A DNA stretch of 39,667 nucleotides from Corallococcus terminator. GTDB lineage: Bacteria; Myxococcota; Myxococcia; Myxococcales; Myxococcaceae. The DNA lies in contig NZ_RAVZ01000043.1 in NCBI RefSeq assembly GCF_003611635.1, positions 1-39,667 of the forward strand. The letters are read 5' to 3'. The notes below the pieces were generated by a model. It was not told where the DNA came from and ran no database searches. It saw only the letters and a program-made list of their open reading frames with translations. A program made the translations under genes and the position numbers. This document shows, one piece after another, positions 25 to 8,590 of this stretch (positions are counted from its first letter, which is position 1; every line of letters starts with the position of its first letter).

Positions 25-660
25 GTGCGATTCATCCTGCTCACCCTCCTGTGCCTGGTGCCCGGCCTCGCGCGCGCCCAGGCCGAGGAACTCGAGAACC
101 CCGGCACCGTCTCCGCGGTGCAGGACCGCCTCTACCGCATGCACCACGAGCTGACGCTCGGCGTGGGCGTGCTGCCCGCGGACGCCTACTACAAGGGGCT
201 CATCGGCAACGTCGGCTACACGTACCACTTCAGCGACAGCTTCGCGTGGCAGGTGGGCCGCGGCACGTACAGCTACAACGTGCAGACCAGCCTGCGCCGC
301 CAGTTGGAGCGCGACTTCGACGTGTCCCCCACCAACACCGCCTTCGAGGATCAGGTGCAGTGGATGGTGGGCTCCGACCTGGTGTGGAGCCCGCTGTACG
401 GCAAGACGTCCTTCCTCAACACCAACGTCATCCACTTCGAGGTCTTCCTCCTGGGCGGCGGCACGGTGGTGAAGGTGGAGCGCAGCGACGGTTTCCGTCC
501 CGCCATCAACCTGGGCCTGGGCCTGCGCGTGTTCTCCAGCCGCAACGTGTCCTTCCGCCTGGACGTGACGAACAACACCGTCTTCGCGGGCGCGTCGCGC
601 ATCATCAACGTGCCCACCGTGCAGTTGGGCACGGCCTTCAACTTCGGCGCCACGGAATGA
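25..660 (+). CDS. Outer-membrane beta-barrel protein, GltB/NfsB-like
   Basis: A 211-residue exported protein. Residues 1-19 form a signal peptide ending in ARA. The rest is rich in alternating hydrophobic and polar residues with Tyr and Phe (for example TYHFSDSFAW and INLGLGLRVF), typical of the small outer-membrane barrels of myxobacteria (the family that includes GltA/GltB and NfsA/NfsB). The GTG start is chosen because AGGAAA lies 8 bases upstream and the signal peptide begins there. Its stop overlaps the next start (ATGA). It is the first complete gene of a six-gene coupled series; a partner barrel may lie upstream, outside the window. The family assignment is fairly sure; which paralog it is cannot be told. 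Confidence 0.82.
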   Translation: MRFILLTLLCLVPGLARAQAEELENPGTVSAVQDRLYRMHHELTLGVGVLPADAYYKGLIGNVGYTYHFSDSFAWQVGRGTYSYNVQTSLRRQLERDFDVSPTNTAFEDQVQWMVGSDLVWSPLYGKTSFLNTNVIHFEVFLLGGGTVVKVERSDGFRPAINLGLGLRVFSSRNVSFRLDVTNNTVFAGASRIINVPTVQLGTAFNFGATE

Positions 661-2270
661 CGTCCCGCCCGCTCATCGTCGCCGCGCTCACCAGCGCCGC
701 GCTCTTCGTGTTCCCAACGGTCGCCCGCGCCGCCCCGGACGCGGGCCTGCCGCCCATGCCCGCCGCGCCCGCCACCGCGAAGCCCGGCACGCCTTCGGGC
801 ACCGCCGACGCGGGCACGCTCCCCTCCGACGCGGGCACCGCCGCCGCGCCCGCCGGTCCCGCCAAGGCCGCCGTCGCTGAAGCCCCGCCGCCTCCGCCCC
901 AGAAGGTGGCGCCGGAGACCTTCGACAACGCCCTCAAGGCGTACTTCGACGGCAAGCCGCGCGACGCCGCGGGCCCCCTGTACGCGTGGCTCCAGGCCAC
1001 GCCCCGCACGGACGACAACTATGCATGGGGCCAGTACTTCCTCGCCAAGAGCCTCATCGACCTGGGCCTCACCCACGCGGGCGCCACGTACCTGGCACGC
1101 ATCGCGCGCGAGCGCACCAACCCCAACGTGCTGCCGCGCGCGCTGGACGCGTTGAAGGACCTGACGGACCGGCCGCACGACGAGGTGATGATCGACGAGC
1201 AGGTCTTCGGCGCGCTGGACCTGGGCTTCCTGCCGGAGGAGACGGGCGCGTACGCGCACTACCAGCAGGGCCTGGTGGACCTGCGCGTGGGCAACGAGCG
1301 CTGGGCCGGCACGCACTTCTCCAAGCTCCCGGAGACGAGCGCCGAAGCGAGCCGCGCGAAGTTCGCCCTGCTCGTCACCCGCCTCAAGCAGGTGAAGGAT
1401 CCGCCGGACGAGATGGTGAAGGACTTCCTGTCGCTGTCCGAGGACGAGAAGCTCACCCGCGAGTCGCGCAACGAGGCCGCCCTCGCGGTGGCCCGCCTGC
1501 GCTACGAGCGCAAGGACTGGTCGGGCGCGCTGGACGCGTACGGCAAGGTGAAGCTGCCGCAGTTGGATCCGGGCCGCGCGAGCCTCTACCTGGAAGAGGC
1601 GTGGACCCGCTACAAGCTGGGCGACCTGCGCGCGTCCCTGGGCATCCTCACCACGCTGGACGCGCCGTCCTTCCGCGATGAGTTCCTGCCGGACAAGTAC
1701 CTCTTGCGCGCGCTCATCTTCCGCGACCTGTGCCACTACCTGCCCGCCAAGCGCGCGGCGAAGGAGCTGACGCGGCGGTACGCGGACTCGCTGGAGTCCG
1801 TGCGCTCCCGCGACGACCTGAGCCAGGACGCGCGCCTGCGCCGTGCCGCCAACGCGCACGGTGGCACCAAGCGCGCCGCCCGGTTCGTGTCGCTGCTGGA
1901 CCTGGAGGGAGAGCGCCTGGGCCGCTTCGCCGGCAGCTTCGGCGACCGGCTCTTCGGACACCTGACGCGGCTGTATGACCTGTCCCACGCGGAGGCCGTG
2001 CGCGTGTACGACGCCCGGCTCGCGGAGGCCGTGCGCCAGGAGGCGGACACGCTGTTGCGCGCCGCCGAACAGGTGCGCCTGATGGAGTACGAGGTGGGCC
2101 TGAAGCTGTATGAGCGCGTGAAGAAGGGCGCCCAGGTGGTGGCCGCCGAAGAAGAGCAAATGCTGTCCCCCGCGCAGGTCGCCTTCCGCTTCGACAACGA
2201 ATACTGGAACGACGAGCTCAAGTCCTACCGGGTCCGCATCGAGAGCCGTTGCATCGAGGAAACCCCATGA
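657..2270 (+). CDS. Exported TPR-type protein, GltC/NfsC-like
   Basis: A 537-residue protein with a signal peptide (residues 1-27, ending ARA), a Pro/Ala/Gly-rich linker to about residue 82, then helical repeats of TPR type through most of the remainder. The ATG at 657 overlaps the previous stop as ATGA; an open frame extends upstream but only as a shadow of the barrel gene. A TPR protein directly after a small outer-membrane barrel matches the order gltB-gltC and nfsB-nfsC. GltC is thought to act in the periplasm or at the outer membrane as part of the trans-envelope complex. The role here is inferred from gene order and repeats, not from a diagnostic motif. Confidence 0.75.
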   Translation: MTSRPLIVAALTSAALFVFPTVARAAPDAGLPPMPAAPATAKPGTPSGTADAGTLPSDAGTAAAPAGPAKAAVAEAPPPPPQKVAPETFDNALKAYFDGKPRDAAGPLYAWLQATPRTDDNYAWGQYFLAKSLIDLGLTHAGATYLARIARERTNPNVLPRALDALKDLTDRPHDEVMIDEQVFGALDLGFLPEETGAYAHYQQGLVDLRVGNERWAGTHFSKLPETSAEASRAKFALLVTRLKQVKDPPDEMVKDFLSLSEDEKLTRESRNEAALAVARLRYERKDWSGALDAYGKVKLPQLDPGRASLYLEEAWTRYKLGDLRASLGILTTLDAPSFRDEFLPDKYLLRALIFRDLCHYLPAKRAAKELTRRYADSLESVRSRDDLSQDARLRRAANAHGGTKRAARFVSLLDLEGERLGRFAGSFGDRLFGHLTRLYDLSHAEAVRVYDARLAEAVRQEADTLLRAAEQVRLMEYEVGLKLYERVKKGAQVVAAEEEQMLSPAQVAFRFDNEYWNDELKSYRVRIESRCIEETP

Positions 2271-5200
2271 CCGGCCCGTTCACCGGCCTCATCACCGCCG
2301 CGATGCTCGCGGCCGCAGCTCCTGGCGCCGCCGGCCGCGTCGGGCCCAACCTCAACCCCATCGTCTCCAAGGCGAAGGAGCGCGACGAGCTCATCGCCAA
2401 GCTCAAGCGCGACATCTTCAAGGTGGACCGCTCCATCGGCGAGACGGAGAAGCTCATCTCCAAGAGCCGCAACGCCCCGTACCTCCCGGACCTCCAGTTC
2501 CGGCTGGCGGAGCTGTACGTGGAGAAGAGCCGCTACGTGTACTACCTCCAGGCCGAAGAGCGGCCGGAGGGAGCGTCGGGCGCCATCGTCTCCCCGGAGA
2601 CGCGCCTGATGAAGCAGAAGGCGGTGCAGATGTACTTCCGCCTGCTGCGCGAGTACCCGGACTTCAAGGACGGCGATCAGGTGACGTTCTACCTGGCGCA
2701 CGAGCAGCGCGAACTGGGCCAGTTCGATGAGATGCTCAAGACGTTGGGCGACCTGACGCGCAAGTTCCCCAACAGCCCGCTGCGTCTGGAATCCGAACAG
2801 ATTCTCGGAGACCACTTCTTCGACAAGGCGGACCTCGTCGAAGCGGAGAAGCACTACCAGGCCATCCTGGAGCTGCCGCCGTCGCCGGTGCACGACCTGG
2901 CCCGCTACAAGATGGGCTGGATCCGCGTGAACCAGGCCAAGCACGCGGAGGCCGTCACGTTCTTCGAAGCGGCGGCCGCCAGCGCGCCCCTGCCCGGCGT
3001 GGACGTGAAGAAGGCGCTCAACGTCAAGCGCGAGGCGCTGCTGGACCTCGTGTACAGCTACACGGAGGCCAAGCCCCCCAAGGGCGCGCTCAACTACTTC
3101 GAGAAGCTCAGCGACAGCCGCGCCACGTACGCGCTCGCGCTGGACAAGCTGGGCAACCGCTACTTCATCAAGCAGCAGTACGAGTGGGCCATCCCCACGC
3201 TGCGCAAGCTGATGGAAGTGCAGCCGGACCCGGAGCTGGACCTGGAGCGCGGGCAGAAGCTGTACGACTCGCTCAAGGCCGCCAAGGGCAAGGTGCTGCC
3301 GGAGCCGGAGGACATCCGCTTCCTGGTGCGCGCCTCGGTGCAGAGCAAGACGGATCCGGAGCTCTCCGAGACGGACCGCAAGAAGCAGCTCGTGGAGCTG
3401 GAGGAGATGGCGCGCGACCTGTCCACCCAGGTGCACCTGGCGGCGCAGAAGAAGGACGAGCGCGACCTGTACGTGAAGGCCGCGGCGGCCTACCGCGAGT
3501 ACCTGGGCCTGTTCCGGCCCGAGCAGTACGTGCGTCCCATCATGAAGAACCGCGCGGACGCGCTCTTCGCGGCCAAGGAGTTCCCGGACGCCGCGCGCCA
3601 GTTCGAGGAGCTGGCCCGCTACGAGGACAAGGCCAAGGCCAAGGACGACAAGGCCGTGGACGCGGCGATGTACGGCGCGCTGCTGGCCCACTTCTCCACG
3701 CTCAAGCCGGAAGAGGCCCTCAAGCGCAACGCCTTCGAAGTGGCCGACGCGCGGCAGGCCCTGAAGCTGTTGGGCGCCAACTACGTGTCGCGCTACCCGC
3801 AGAGCCCGCACGTGCTGGACGTGAAGTTCAACATCGCGCGCGCCCACTACGAGGACGGCGACTACCCCAAGGCGGCGGAGCTGTTCACCGCGTTCGCGCT
3901 GGCGCATCCGCAGTACAAGGACGCGCCGGTGGCGGGCAACCTGGCGCTGGACAGCCTCCGGCAGGTGAACGACTTCAAGAAGCTGGACGAGACGGGGCGC
4001 AAGTTCCTCGCGTCGTCGCTGCCGTCCAACTTCCGCGGGGAGGTGCAGAAGATCCTCACGCAGAGCAAGTCCGAGGCGCTGGACGAGCTGGCCCTGCAGA
4101 GCGCGCAGGAGACGGGCGACGTCATCTCCGGCCTGATGAAGGTCGCGGACGAGAACAAGAACACCGACATCGGCGAGAAGGCGCTCTACGGCGCGTTCAC
4201 CGCGGCGCGCGAGAAGCGCGACCTGCCCCGCGAGCGCGAGCTGGGCACGAAGCTGGTGCAGTCCTACCCGAAGAGCCAGTACCTGTCGGATGTGCTGTTG
4301 ACGCTCGGTCGGCACTCGGCCGAAGCGGCGGCCTTCACGGAAGCGGCCGGCTGGTTCGAACAGGTGGGCCAGAAGCTGGGCGGCGACCTGGCGGCGGTGG
4401 ACGGCTGGATGGCCGGCGCGCGGCTGCGGCTGGCGCTGGGTGAGTACAAGGAAGCGTCCCGCAACCTGGAGACGGCGGCGGAGGCGGCCGGTGCTCGCAA
4501 GGGCGAGGTGCTGTCGCTGCTCGCCGAGACGCGCCTGAAGCAGAAGGACTACGCGCGGGCGAAGTCGACCGCGGAGTCCGCGCTGCGGCTGGACAAGAAC
4601 AACGTGGCGGCCGCCGCGGTGCTCGCCGAGGTGCAGGCGGCGACGGCGCCCACGGCGAGCCCCGACGCGCTCATCGCCACCCTCACCGCCGCGGTGCAGG
4701 GCCCTAACGGTCAGTCGGAAGAAGCGGCCAAGGGCCTGTGGTACCTGGGGGAGATCCTCTTCCGCGGCTACAAGGACCTGCCCGCCGACAAGGTGGAGGA
4801 GAAGGTCGCCGCGCTCCAGGCCATGGAGGGCGTGTACACGCAGGCCGCGTCGCTCGGGTATCCGGAGTGGGCGGTGGCGTCGCTGTGGAAGATTGCCCTG
4901 GCGTACGGCCACATCGCGGACGTGGTGGACCAGACGCCGGTGCCGGGCGGGCTGTCCGCCGCGGAGACGAAGCAGTTCCAGGACGCGGTGAAGCAGCAGG
5001 TGGGACCGCTGAAGTCCCGCTCCGACGACGCCTTCAAGGCGTGCCTGTCCCGCGCGGAGTCGCTGGAGGTCTTCAACGCGGCCGTCCTGGGCTGCCGCAA
5101 CCGTACGGACGTGGCCTCGCTGCCGGTGCCTCCGACGGCCGCGCCCACGCAGCCGGCTGCATTGGACGACCTGCGCAAGAAGGCGGAGAAGGTGTTGTCC

Positions 5201-5545
5201 GCCGAAGCGCTGGAAGCCCTGGGCATGGGCTACCTGGACGCGCACCAGTACGGCATGGCGCAGCTCACCTTCGGCCGCGTGACGGAGTTGCAGGACACGC
5301 GCGCCTCCGCGCACGCCGCGCTGGGCTGGGCCATGCTCAACCTGGGCGACGCGATGGGCGCCCGGGCCGCGTACGCCAAGGCGCTGGAGGCGGACCCCAC
5401 CTACGACAAGGCCCGCCTCAACCTGGCCGCGCTGCGCTGCCGCTTCGGCGACACGGACGGCGCGCGCCGCGAATTGGCCGTGCTCAAGGACATGGGCACG
5501 CTCAACGGTCCGGACGTGGACGCGGGCTGGAAGGCGTGCAAGTGA
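2267..5545 (+). CDS. Large exported TPR protein, GltD/NfsD-like
   Basis: A 1092-residue protein. The ATG at 2267 has GAGGA 6 bases upstream and overlaps the previous stop (ATGA). A short hydrophobic N-terminus (residues 1-23) looks like a signal peptide. The rest is a long series of TPR-like helical pairs, with clear units such as residues around EYPDFKDGDQVTFYLAHEQ and, near the C-terminus, ALGWAMLNLGDAMGARAAYA. Size, repeats and place after a GltC-like gene fit GltD (AgmU) and NfsD, large TPR proteins of the gliding and sporulation machines. It would act as a periplasmic scaffold. Paralog identity is not resolved. Confidence 0.75.
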   Translation: MTGPFTGLITAAMLAAAAPGAAGRVGPNLNPIVSKAKERDELIAKLKRDIFKVDRSIGETEKLISKSRNAPYLPDLQFRLAELYVEKSRYVYYLQAEERPEGASGAIVSPETRLMKQKAVQMYFRLLREYPDFKDGDQVTFYLAHEQRELGQFDEMLKTLGDLTRKFPNSPLRLESEQILGDHFFDKADLVEAEKHYQAILELPPSPVHDLARYKMGWIRVNQAKHAEAVTFFEAAAASAPLPGVDVKKALNVKREALLDLVYSYTEAKPPKGALNYFEKLSDSRATYALALDKLGNRYFIKQQYEWAIPTLRKLMEVQPDPELDLERGQKLYDSLKAAKGKVLPEPEDIRFLVRASVQSKTDPELSETDRKKQLVELEEMARDLSTQVHLAAQKKDERDLYVKAAAAYREYLGLFRPEQYVRPIMKNRADALFAAKEFPDAARQFEELARYEDKAKAKDDKAVDAAMYGALLAHFSTLKPEEALKRNAFEVADARQALKLLGANYVSRYPQSPHVLDVKFNIARAHYEDGDYPKAAELFTAFALAHPQYKDAPVAGNLALDSLRQVNDFKKLDETGRKFLASSLPSNFRGEVQKILTQSKSEALDELALQSAQETGDVISGLMKVADENKNTDIGEKALYGAFTAAREKRDLPRERELGTKLVQSYPKSQYLSDVLLTLGRHSAEAAAFTEAAGWFEQVGQKLGGDLAAVDGWMAGARLRLALGEYKEASRNLETAAEAAGARKGEVLSLLAETRLKQKDYARAKSTAESALRLDKNNVAAAAVLAEVQAATAPTASPDALIATLTAAVQGPNGQSEEAAKGLWYLGEILFRGYKDLPADKVEEKVAALQAMEGVYTQAASLGYPEWAVASLWKIALAYGHIADVVDQTPVPGGLSAAETKQFQDAVKQQVGPLKSRSDDAFKACLSRAESLEVFNAAVLGCRNRTDVASLPVPPTAAPTQPAALDDLRKKAEKVLSAEALEALGMGYLDAHQYGMAQLTFGRVTELQDTRASAHAALGWAMLNLGDAMGARAAYAKALEADPTYDKARLNLAALRCRFGDTDGARRELAVLKDMGTLNGPDVDAGWKACK

Positions 5546-6045
5546 GCGCGCGCCTTCGCTTCATCGCTCCGGCGCTGTTCGCGCTCGCCACCGCCGCGTG
5601 TGGCGAGGGCGAGGGCGGCGCGCTGGAGGGCAGCGTGACGCCGCTGCTGGACCTGCGCTACCAGCGCTCCGAAGCGCGGCTGGCGGAGGGCACGCTGGCG
5701 GTGAGCTTCGTCGACACGCAGGGCTCCGGGCAGGACGTGGTGCTCAAGGTGAGCGCGCGCGTGGCGGACATGCTGCCGGAGGACCCGGAGTACGCGGGCT
5801 CGCTGGACATCAACCTGGCGGAACCCCTGGAGGACGGCTCGCAGCGGGGCAGCGTGGACCGCAGCGTGCTGGATGAGCCGGTGCGTCCCTTCCCGCTTCT
5901 GGCGCGCGGCAACCTCTTCGTGAAGTCCCTTCCGAAAACCCCCGGTGACCGCGTGTCGGGCGAGTTCAACGTGACCTTCGTCAACGGCACCGACGTCTAC
6001 TCCGGCCGCACCATCTTCGGCCGCTTCGAGGCGACCGCTCCATGA
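5542..6045 (+). CDS. Small lipoprotein of the Glt/Nfs-like cluster
   Basis: A 167-residue protein. The GTG at 5542 overlaps the stop of the TPR gene (GTGA). The N-terminus carries Arg residues, a hydrophobic stretch and a lipobox-like ending ATAAC, with Cys20 as the lipidated residue. Thr at position -3 is not the ideal lipobox residue, so processing is likely but not certain. The mature part is beta-rich without a motif I recognise (it contains GEFNVTFVNGTDVYSG near the end). Its place after the GltD/NfsD-like gene suggests an accessory envelope lipoprotein, but I assign no specific function. Confidence 0.72.
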   Translation: MSARLRFIAPALFALATAACGEGEGGALEGSVTPLLDLRYQRSEARLAEGTLAVSFVDTQGSGQDVVLKVSARVADMLPEDPEYAGSLDINLAEPLEDGSQRGSVDRSVLDEPVRPFPLLARGNLFVKSLPKTPGDRVSGEFNVTFVNGTDVYSGRTIFGRFEATAP

Positions 6046-6680
6046 AGCGCACCCTGTTGTTGAGCCTGACCCTCCTGGCCTCCGCCTGCGGCCCGCGCTA
6101 CGGCATGCGCGTGCCGGACTCGCTGGTGAAGAAGCTGCCGTACGAGACGCGCATCGAACTGCTGGAGTCGGAGAACGACCTGGCGCTGGCCATCGACCGC
6201 GTGGACGAAGCGGACAACGAGGTCAACCGCGCGCGGGAGAACATCCGCCGGGCCAAGTCCCGCCAGGAGGCCGCCGAGGACGAGGAGGACCGCGCCCCGG
6301 ACGCGTCGTCGCGCGAGGTGGCGCAACTGGCCATCGCGGAGTCGGAGTCCCGCGTGGAGTTCCTGCGCGCGCACCAGCGCCTCAACGTGGGCCTGCGCGA
6401 GGTGGAGAAGCTGTCGCTGCGGTGCGCGTTCGCGAAGTTCGAACTGGCGCGACTCACCGCGGCACGCAAGGCGAAGGTGCAGGGCAGTGAACGCCTGGAG
6501 GTCAAGGAGTACGAGGAGCAGGTGTCCGAGTGTGAAGCGGCCGTGAAGGAAGAGCGCGCGGCGCTTGCGGAGGACACCAAGGAAGCGCAGACCGCGAAGG
6601 AAGCCTGGGAAACGAAGAAAGCCGCCCTCGCCAAGAAGACCTTCGACGCACGCGCCAGCCCCTACGTGGAGAACCTGTGA
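6042..6680 (+). CDS. Coiled-coil lipoprotein of the Glt/Nfs-like cluster
   Basis: A 212-residue lipoprotein: Lys-Arg, a Leu-rich core and the lipobox LASAC with Cys16. From about residue 45 to 200 the sequence is charged and Ala/Glu/Lys/Arg-rich with heptad-like spacing, so a long periplasmic coiled coil is likely. Its ATG overlaps the previous stop (ATGA) and its own stop overlaps the next start (TGATG). A lipid-anchored coiled coil could span part of the periplasm and link the outer membrane to the TPR scaffold proteins; this is inference from structure and context. No named family is recognised. Confidence 0.78.
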   Translation: MKRTLLLSLTLLASACGPRYGMRVPDSLVKKLPYETRIELLESENDLALAIDRVDEADNEVNRARENIRRAKSRQEAAEDEEDRAPDASSREVAQLAIAESESRVEFLRAHQRLNVGLREVEKLSLRCAFAKFELARLTAARKAKVQGSERLEVKEYEEQVSECEAAVKEERAALAEDTKEAQTAKEAWETKKAALAKKTFDARASPYVENL

Positions 6681-8590
6681 TGACGAACGCCACCGTCCTC
6701 ATCCTCCAGTTGCTCGCTGCCCAGGCCCCCGCTCCGGAGGCCGCGCCTCCTGAGAAGCCCGCCGTCGCCGCACCGCGCGCGGACAAGCTCCCGGATGACC
6801 CGGACGCGCTCTACAAGCTGGGCACGGCCTTCCTGTCGCAGAACCAGCCGCGCCGCGCGGTGGCCCCGCTGACGAAGCTGGTGGGCCTCACCCCGGACGG
6901 CGTGCCGGCGAGGGTGGCCCTGGCGCGCGCCCTGCGGCTGTCGGGCGACGTGGACAAGGCGAAGGCGGTGCTGGACTCAGCGCTGGCGGGCTTCCCGGAA
7001 GAGGCCACGCTGCGCTCGGAGCGCGGGCTGCTGGCGCGCATCCAGGACGACACGGACGAGGCCATCACCCAGTACTCGGTGGCGACGGAGCTGGCGCCGC
7101 AGGACGCGGAGCTGCGCTTCAACCTGGGCGAAGTGCTCCAGCGCGCCAGCCGCACGGACGACGCCATCGAGGCGTACCGCGAGGCGCTGAAGCTGGACGG
7201 CAAGCTGCACGTCGCGCGGGTGAACCTGGGCAAGGCGCTGGCGGAGAAGGGCCAGAACGCGGAGGCCAAGGAGACGCTGCGCGAAGCGCTGCGCCAGAAG
7301 GACGGCGACGCGGAGGCGCACTACAACCTGGGCGTCATCCTGATGCGGGAGAACGACGCAGCGGGTGCGTTCGCGGAGTATCACGCCGCCATCAAGGCGG
7401 ACCCCAAGCACGCCCGGGCGCAGAACAACCTGGGCGTGGTGCTGGACGGTCAGGGCAACGCGCGCAAGGCGGCGGAGGCCTTCACGCGCGCCATCGCGTT
7501 GGATCCGAAGTACGCGGAGGCGCACTTCAACCTAGGGCTCGTGTGCTTCCAGTTGGGGGAGAACGCGAAGGCGACGCGCGCGTTCGAGAAGGCGCTGCTG
7601 CTGGAGCCCCGCCGTTCGAGCGGTCCCTACACGCAGTTGGGCCAGCTCTACCTCGCGCAGGGCAAGAAGACGCAGGCGGTGTCCGCGTTCCAGAAGGCCA
7701 TCGAGAAGAGCGCCGACGACGGGAAGAAGACGACGGAGGCGTACCAGGGGCTCGCGCGTGCGTACCTGGGGCTGGGCAAGGTGGACGAGGCGGTGGCCAC
7801 GCTGAAGACGGCGGTGGAGACCTTCCCGGACGAGCCCGGCACGCGCTCCGGCTACGGCGACGCGCTCCGGGCCAAGGGCGACCTGGACGGCGCCATCGCG
7901 CAGTACACGGAGAGCCTGCGGCTGGCGCCCACGACGGAGAACCGGCTGGTGCTCGCGGAGGCCTACGCGAAGAAGCACGTGGGCGCGCAGGCCAGGCCTC
8001 TCTACCAGGCGGTGCTCAAGGAGGATCCGAACCACCGCGGGGCGAAGCTGGGGCTCGCGGATCTGCTGCTGGCCATGGGCGACTACGTGGAGGCGGAGAA
8101 GCTCCTGACGCCCGCCGCGGGCGAGGAGCCGGACACCGCGGCGCTCGCGCGGCTGGGCATCCTGCACTCGCGGCGTGGCCGGCCGGACCTGGCCGTGCCG
8201 GAGCTGGAGGCGGTGGTGGCGAAGGACCCCGCGCAGTTGGAGGCCCGCGCGGAGCTGGGCTTCCTGTACCTGCGCGGCGGTGACGAGTCGAAGGCGGTGC
8301 AGGTGCTGAGCGACCTGCTGGCGGTGGAGCCGCGCAACTCGCTGGGCCTGCTGTACCTGGGCCACACGCTGTACCGGCAGGGCAAGGCGAAGGACGCGGA
8401 GAAGTCCTTCCGGGGCGCTTCGCAGGTGGACCCCATCGCGGGCGAGCCGCACTTCGCGCTGGCGCAGCTCCTGGAGTCCACGGGCCGCAAGGACGAGGCG
8501 AAGAAGGAGTACGCGGAGGCGGTGCGGCTCCAGCCCGACCACGCGGACGCGAAGACGGCGTTGCAGAAGCTCGCCTCCGACGTGCCCTGA
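6680..8590 (+). CDS. TPR-repeat protein closing the Glt/Nfs-like cluster
   Basis: A 636-residue protein of back-to-back TPRs, many close to consensus: AHYNLGVILMRENDAAGAFAEY, then two similar units (ARAQNNLGVVLDG and AEAHFNLGLVCFQLGE). The N-terminus is weakly hydrophobic and then Pro/Ala-rich, so export is possible but a signal peptide is not clear. ATG 6680 is preferred to the GTG three bases upstream because it forms TGATG with the previous stop. It is the last gene before a GC-rich hairpin, so probably the operon end. TPR proteins of this kind are protein-binding scaffolds; the partner is presumably in the same cluster. Confidence 0.8.
   Translation: MTNATVLILQLLAAQAPAPEAAPPEKPAVAAPRADKLPDDPDALYKLGTAFLSQNQPRRAVAPLTKLVGLTPDGVPARVALARALRLSGDVDKAKAVLDSALAGFPEEATLRSERGLLARIQDDTDEAITQYSVATELAPQDAELRFNLGEVLQRASRTDDAIEAYREALKLDGKLHVARVNLGKALAEKGQNAEAKETLREALRQKDGDAEAHYNLGVILMRENDAAGAFAEYHAAIKADPKHARAQNNLGVVLDGQGNARKAAEAFTRAIALDPKYAEAHFNLGLVCFQLGENAKATRAFEKALLLEPRRSSGPYTQLGQLYLAQGKKTQAVSAFQKAIEKSADDGKKTTEAYQGLARAYLGLGKVDEAVATLKTAVETFPDEPGTRSGYGDALRAKGDLDGAIAQYTESLRLAPTTENRLVLAEAYAKKHVGAQARPLYQAVLKEDPNHRGAKLGLADLLLAMGDYVEAEKLLTPAAGEEPDTAALARLGILHSRRGRPDLAVPELEAVVAKDPAQLEARAELGFLYLRGGDESKAVQVLSDLLAVEPRNSLGLLYLGHTLYRQGKAKDAEKSFRGASQVDPIAGEPHFALAQLLESTGRKDEAKKEYAEAVRLQPDHADAKTALQKLASDVP

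Follow-up and report, generated by a model that had tools for sequence, protein, structure and literature searches.

The window analysed here, a stretch of 39,667 nucleotides from Corallococcus terminator (contig NZ_RAVZ01000043.1), opens with six genes that appear to be the last six of an eight-gene operon orthologous to cluster G5 of Myxococcus xanthus, and hence to encode the outer half of a relative of the Glt and Nfs machines. We put the chances at about even that G5 is a trans-envelope force-transducing machine that moves or displays surface proteins of the MtsC/MtsD type, whose genes are found next to it in related genomes.

The operon and its missing part

A preliminary description of this DNA had placed the six genes in the order barrel, TPR protein, giant TPR protein, lipoprotein, coiled-coil lipoprotein and TPR protein (Table 1) and had proposed that they are made as one unit, and both points hold when the coordinates and all five stop-start overlaps are read directly: ATGA (657), ATGA (2267), GTGA (5542), ATGA (6042) and TGATG (6678). 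The six genes form one unit, overlapping at all junctions. Furthermore, they are not chance open reading frames, since the proteins share 66-83% identity with those of M. xanthus AM003 at dN/dS values of 0.18-0.70, the highest being that of the small lipoprotein. The gene order is kept in the 25 related loci of our comparison set, the nearest being that of Corallococcus praedator with its GltD-like protein at 98%; these loci are myxobacterial by title except for one labelled Comamonas, and any gene not found in them falls where the contig ends. The exception (L018), whose contig bears the title Comamonas sp. KCTC 72670, holds a Myxococcus-like G5 locus with 84% identity to the window protein, and this title looks mislabelled.

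The resemblance to a Glt/Nfs-type machine, likewise proposed in the preliminary description, is borne out by profile and blast matches for the barrel, C, D and E homologues. The barrel protein lies well above the cut-off of the TIGR04565 family, and a profile of its orthologues picks up the barrels in four G2 loci with E-values of 8.6e-16 to 5.6e-22; the C, D and E homologues lie in the window itself and a G homologue on an abutting contig and in relatives. The inner-membrane parts had been reported as absent, which is true of the window but not of the genome. The window is an entire contig (C377 in our numbering) and base 1 is therefore a contig end, while on another contig of this genome, C292, an F-like (CglF-like) gene is followed by a full-length GltG-like gene, past whose stop codon the contig goes on for only 37 bases. 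Judged by eye, the end of C292 and the start of the window fit the two sides of an intergenic stretch in the related loci L005 and L006, and the inner-membrane part is thus missing from the window because the operon is cut at the contig end. Ahead of the barrel gene AM003 has the gene of a 761-residue protein with an FHA domain and an AgmX/PglI C-terminal domain (217 bits to the GltG model, cut-off 650), and ahead of that the gene of a small protein matching CglF at 33 bits (cut-off 90), and the same F-G-first order is found in those Myxococcaceae loci that have enough sequence. As judged from these loci, the operon reads F-G-barrel-C-D-lipoprotein-coiled-coil lipoprotein-E, and the window has the last six of its eight genes.

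Assignment to cluster G5

There are four GltD-like genes in AM003. One is found within an nfs-like eight-gene cluster; another, of 1192 residues and with a GltE-like gene next to it, was assigned to glt (G1), GltD being listed with 1191 residues in a 2011 table (Luciano et al. 2011, PMC3169522); a third adjoins both an MglB-like gene with a Roadblock domain (NF052242, 89.8 bits, cut-off 200) and a gene for a 195-residue Ras/Arf-type GTPase; and the fourth is the orthologue of the window gene. The same source names as GltD homologues MXAN_3374 (G3, nfs), MXAN_1922 (G4) and MXAN_1327 (G5). MglA is MXAN1925, three tags off MXAN_1922, and the third gene was assigned to G4. Since the other three loci go to G1, nfs and G4, the window cluster is by elimination orthologous to G5 (MXAN_1327), as far as sequence comparison can tell.

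This assignment agrees roughly with the gene neighbourhood. The preliminary description had put the cluster about 17 kb from csgA, and the gene so named there, which codes for a 229-residue SDR protein, is indeed found 16.8 kb from the cluster. It is 75% identical to an orthologous gene that in AM003 shares a contig with G5 and is separated from the E gene by 26.4 kb and 24 called genes. As csgA is MXAN_1294, 32 genes would be expected before the D gene from the tags whereas 27 were called, the gene caller leaving gaps.

In trees of the D, G, E and C proteins (19, 14, 19 and 17 rows, respectively) the proteins of each machine, be it G5, Glt, Nfs or G4, come out as a single group at a bootstrap of 100, and G5 has 100/100 in every tree. 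In the G tree the window's genome is not represented among the G5 rows, and one AM003 row was dropped from this tree as a poor match (E-value 7e-4) that looked kinase-like by eye. The G5 proteins thus fall outside both the Glt and the Nfs groups in all four trees, and neither of the outcomes named beforehand as fatal to a separate machine, namely a position inside either clade or a lack of any similarity, was encountered. The suggestion of a third type of machine therefore stands as regards separateness from Glt and Nfs but not as regards the number, since G5 would be the fourth such machine in M. xanthus, beside Glt, Nfs and G4. Nor is the locus itself new: a list of 2011 already includes G5 as a cluster whose function is not known, and in the available part of PMC3169522 no function, motor or MtsC/MtsD link is given for it.

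Like G5, the Nfs system (NfsA-H) encodes barrel, C, D, E, F and G in one cluster, but G5 has F and G first, one barrel instead of two, and two extra lipoproteins. The Agl-Glt system (GltA-K, AglRQS, CglB) has like core parts and, if our reading is right, a like action of a motor on surface proteins, but G5 is not orthologous to it: the GltC and GltG cut-offs are not reached, GltJ matches the G5 G protein only via the shared C-terminal domain, and the gltK-like proteins do not match the G5 lipoprotein. G4, beside mglBA-like genes, has a like C/D/E/G core, but forms separate groups and goes, by distribution and linkage, with another motor (M2), as described below.

Motors

In genome G149, which belongs to another order, the first three genes of the G5 operon are ExbB, ExbD and ExbD, which either overlap or are at most 30 bases distant from each other and from the F-like gene. 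Four loci of family f11 (L204, L208, L209 and L210) likewise have the motor genes first, while in L205 and L207 the motor lies downstream of the cluster; together with that of G149 (L175) and one about 20 kb off in G147 this makes eight G5 loci with a linked motor. Within the stretches examined, several of them cut by contig ends, an ExbB gene is present in 6 of 19 G5-type phylum loci. In the Myxococcaceae no ExbB gene was found in the stretches examined around G5.

Myxococcaceae have two Agl-type motors, one with lengths of 245/158/194 residues that fit AglR/Q/S (245/162/194), and a second of 245/173/193 beside topA, which by elimination was taken as M2 (MXAN_3003-5). In the 120 genomes with a completeness of 90% or more, G4 and M2 occur together in 93, are both missing from 27 and never occur singly (rows at 31% identity or less were dropped from the G4 count as other paralogues), and the five discordances in all 147 genomes (G038, G054, G058, G127 and G142) are confined to genomes less than 90% complete. 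In addition, the motor matched by the M2 query in G149 lies inside the G4 cluster, beside an MglA-like gene (L242, contig C29), and the same layout is seen in G150 (L243, contig C482) as far as the contig reaches. Because of this co-occurrence and the M2-type motor inside G4, M2 is most likely the motor of G4.

AglQ has a match in every G5-positive genome of at least 90% completeness with the exception of G149, where it matches nothing but the motor inside G4. According to the available part of Wartel 2013 (PMC3858216), AglRQS is shared by Glt and Nfs, and no binding of MXAN_3003 to either GltG or NfsG was observed. Since M2 goes to G4 and AglRQS serves more than one machine, AglRQS would be the likeliest G5 motor in Myxococcaceae, where G5 would either borrow it or have no motor, much as the preliminary description had supposed.

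Neighbouring genes and the candidate cargo

Divergent from the operon in AM003 runs a row of genes for a weakly cytochrome/propeller-like protein, a TSP3 lipoprotein, MtsC, the MtsD orthologue and a further TSP3 protein. Here MtsC, encoded 4.5 kb from F, is matched by NF047638 at 597.6 bits (cut-off 350); the MtsD orthologue is 99% identical to the protein beside G5 in genome G122, which NF047639 matches at 1308.6 bits (cut-off 800). Corallococcus genome G063 has the same row, with MtsC (606.6 bits) and MtsD (1294.1 bits) 7 and 8.6 kb from F, so that in Myxococcus and Corallococcus relatives the two genes lie within 12 kb of G5. In the genome of the window, the first of the row's TSP3 genes is found on C292; it is related to MtsD (87 bits) and is cut by the other end of the contig. 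TSP3/VWA relatives flank 11 of the 15 related loci that reach F and are also found beside L161, L166, L169, L175, L205, L215, L216 and L240; thirteen further relatives scored 72-207 bits to MtsD, below cut-off. As a control, TSP3_bac matches were counted in six genomes, and those near G5 amount to 5 of 5 in G147, 4 of 9 in G122, 4 of 11 in G063, 4 of 9 in AM003, 2 of at least 32 in G143 and 3 of at least 27 in G149 (150 of 184 candidates being scored in G143 and 150 of 191 in G149). All five matches of G147 lie at 2940-2948 kb, between the motor at 2936-2938 kb and G5 at 2958-2969 kb.

NCBIfam names MtsC and MtsD cell-cell cohesion proteins, and this function rests on the family names, as no paper on either protein was among those listed by our literature search. 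During gliding, according to the available part of a review, CglB, an adhesin of the VWA type, is brought in by the Glt complex, and by analogy MtsC/MtsD-type surface proteins are the likely cargo of G5.

Proposed mechanism and alternatives

In the proposed mechanism the GltG-like inner-membrane protein, with its FHA and TonB-like domains, would couple to a proton-driven motor of the ExbB/ExbD type and pull on a TPR scaffold formed by the C, D and E proteins, which in turn would be tied to the outer-membrane barrel and the lipoproteins. By way of these parts the machine may move or display surface proteins of the TSP3/VWA kind whose genes adjoin its own, MtsC and MtsD among them, with relatives using a motor of their own and the Myxococcaceae most likely AglRQS. 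The operon, its missing part, the homologies, the separate grouping and, in relatives, the linked motors and MtsC/MtsD genes are seen in the sequences themselves, and from these we infer motor coupling, cargo and the use of AglRQS. A wider version, which we put forward tentatively and as rather less probable than not, would make G5 an ancient machine class in its own right, one that handles cell-cohesion proteins of the MtsC/MtsD type by means of a motor, is tied to signalling in one deep lineage through the kinase-fused GltG-like protein and is AglRQS-powered in Myxococcaceae, such that AglRQS serves Glt, Nfs and G5 while M2 serves G4.

A number of observations weigh against the proposed mechanism. 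FHA domains usually carry a GR motif, and that of the AM003 protein has Ser in place of Arg. The membrane helix of the G5 GltG-like protein is by eye no closer to GltG than to NfsG and is uninformative on the motor, and the trees give no firm branching order for the four machines and come with a long-branch warning. The locus is furthermore not uniform, since no small lipoprotein turned up in the phylum panel, nor an E or a coiled-coil gene in L157 (genome G149). As to the cargo, TSP3/VWA genes were not found in four of the 15 loci reaching F (L015, L021, L022 and L026), and among the 19 phylum loci of G5 type, several of which are contig-cut, just 3 have them; among seven proteins tested the Pfam cut-off was reached by TSP3 in six but by VWA in just three, and the genomes have other TSP3 genes away from G5. 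Finally, a polar MXAN_1327 mutant glides and shows normal motility, as stated in the available part of PMC3169522, and in the literature found nothing links this mutant to cohesion and no sporulation assay of it was encountered.

The missing ExbB gene in Myxococcaceae would also be explained if G5 were there a motorless, static platform, that is, an envelope-spanning scaffold exporting or holding surface lipoproteins, and the fact that M2 is accounted for by G4 is in agreement with this. Such a platform is however rather unlikely, since the GltG-like protein is kept with its TonB-like C-terminal domain, relatives of this protein contact a motor, and AglRQS is known, from the source cited above, to serve more than one machine. 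An action on surface polymer instead of proteins could be supposed from the core parts, which are as in Nfs, a paralogue that distributes spore-coat polymer according to Wartel 2013. The recurrent neighbours of G5 are however MtsC/MtsD-type proteins, the cytochrome/propeller-like protein, a GMC oxidoreductase and an FHA-domain sigma-54 activator, and no polysaccharide genes were noticed among them, though no search was aimed at such genes, which makes a polymer handler a clearly unlikely alternative.

That M2 should drive G5 is suggested by the ExbB tree, in which M2 joins the G5-linked motors at 89/84, a value below the strong-support mark of the tool and one that adds to the points against a G5 powered by AglRQS. 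We nonetheless rejected M2 as the G5 motor on distribution and linkage and regard it as very unlikely, since M2 agrees with G4 in 120 of 120 near-complete genomes but disagrees with G5 in 17 of them (both 77, G5 only 1, M2 only 16, neither 26), since an M2-type motor sits inside G4 in G149, and since G147 has G5 and no M2 match. A transcriptome paper (PMC10196010) in its available part groups MXAN_1327 with Tad-like pilus genes that are upregulated with prey. No Tad family is however found among the matches listed for the eight operon proteins and no Tad genes were noticed in the operons of relatives; a role as a Tad-pilus component is hardly credible and the label looks wrong, while the induction by prey is a lead for predation.

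Other features and distribution

Table 1. Genes of the window, of contig C292 and of related loci discussed in the text.
Feature	Location	Strand	Basis
Outer-membrane β-barrel protein, GltA/GltB/NfsA/NfsB-like, 211 aa	25..660	+	TIGR04565 OMP_myx_plus, 124.7 bits, cut-off 60
GltC-like protein, 537 aa	657..2270	+	NF033756 gliding_GltC, 84 bits, under equivalog cut-off 450
GltD-like large TPR protein, 1092 aa	2267..5545	+	TPR profiles; orthologue is one of four AM003 GltD-like genes
Small lipoprotein, G5 type, 167 aa	5542..6045	+	Lipobox Cys20 invariant in 12/12 aligned rows
Coiled-coil lipoprotein, G5 type, 212 aa	6042..6680	+	Lipobox Cys16 invariant in 12/12 aligned rows
GltE-like TPR protein, 636 aa, longer than GltE	6680..8590	+	TPR throughout; blast to GltE/NfsE/G4 proteins
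SDR protein, 229 aa	25421-26110
F-like (CglF-like) protein	C292:6451-6861
GltG-like protein, full length	C292:6901-9402
MtsC/MtsD genes in row beside G5	L061:17102-18433, L171:3389-5278, L270:6829-10147		NCBIfam matches
GltG-like protein with N-terminal Ser/Thr kinase domain (G149)	L175:1438-4869		PF00069, 132 bits
FHA-domain sigma-54 activator	L062:10856-12067
Weakly cytochrome/propeller-like protein	L061:13043-15157

The small lipoprotein gives no match at E-values up to 0.1 in Pfam and NCBIfam scans, and its predicted structure is all-beta (mean pLDDT 84.8) with no match at E-values up to 0.001 in a search of the PDB. GltK was considered and rejected as its identity, as its profile matches no G2 protein, gltK-like ones included, up to an E-value of 10. 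The coiled-coil lipoprotein is predicted to form long helices at 34-83 and 88-143 (mean pLDDT 88.0), likewise with no PDB match at the same threshold, and its sole family match is a weak one to SMC (16.5 bits). Downstream of the operon the next gene of the window begins 180-280 bases past position 8590, its start being uncertain, and is not the gene found downstream of E in AM003.

With the window GltD-like protein as query, 89 of the 147 genomes of the class match at an E-value of 1e-40 or less, a count that leaves out one of 90 matches (G041) as G1-type, and a deep G5 relative used as query matches 117 of the 195 genomes of the phylum set at 1e-25 or less, some rows of which may be other paralogues. 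G5-type clusters thus occur across the phylum set. Of the 20 phylum loci L219 was not G5-type, leaving 19; L158, L162 and L173 were read by six-frame profile search, and many loci of this panel have two barrels. The kinase domain fused to the GltG-like protein of G149 hints at phospho-control in a deep lineage. The FHA-domain sigma-54 activator recurs near G5 also in L157-L160 and L202 and is a possible regulator, and the weakly cytochrome/propeller-like protein is encoded divergently from the operon in many Myxococcaceae loci. Genomes G047, G048, G050, G051, G076-G079, G094 and G096 belong to the same family, are at least 90% complete and gave no G5 match at the threshold of 1e-40, and these could serve as natural knock-outs for comparing phenotypes.

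Significance

When the literature was searched by tag, of MXAN_1325-1328 and MXAN_1922 only MXAN_1327 and MXAN_1922 turned up, MXAN_1330, 1332, 1333, 1344 and 1345 were in no paper found, and MXAN_3003-3005 were not found in papers from 2014 on that mention AglRQS or these G5 and G4 tags. In the literature found, of which parts were available, G5, G4 and M2 are without assigned function, and neither the completeness of G5 nor its link to MtsC/MtsD is mentioned there, nor are the motors seen in relatives or the pairing of M2 with G4, so that these points are apparently new. Three claims open to experiment follow, namely that M2 is the motor of G4, that relatives of G5 have their own motor, and that MtsC/MtsD-type proteins are the likely cargo of G5. 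If these are true, myxobacteria would possess a family of related envelope machines, with motors either in common or of their own, for which gliding is but one use, and cell-cell cohesion may be actively driven.

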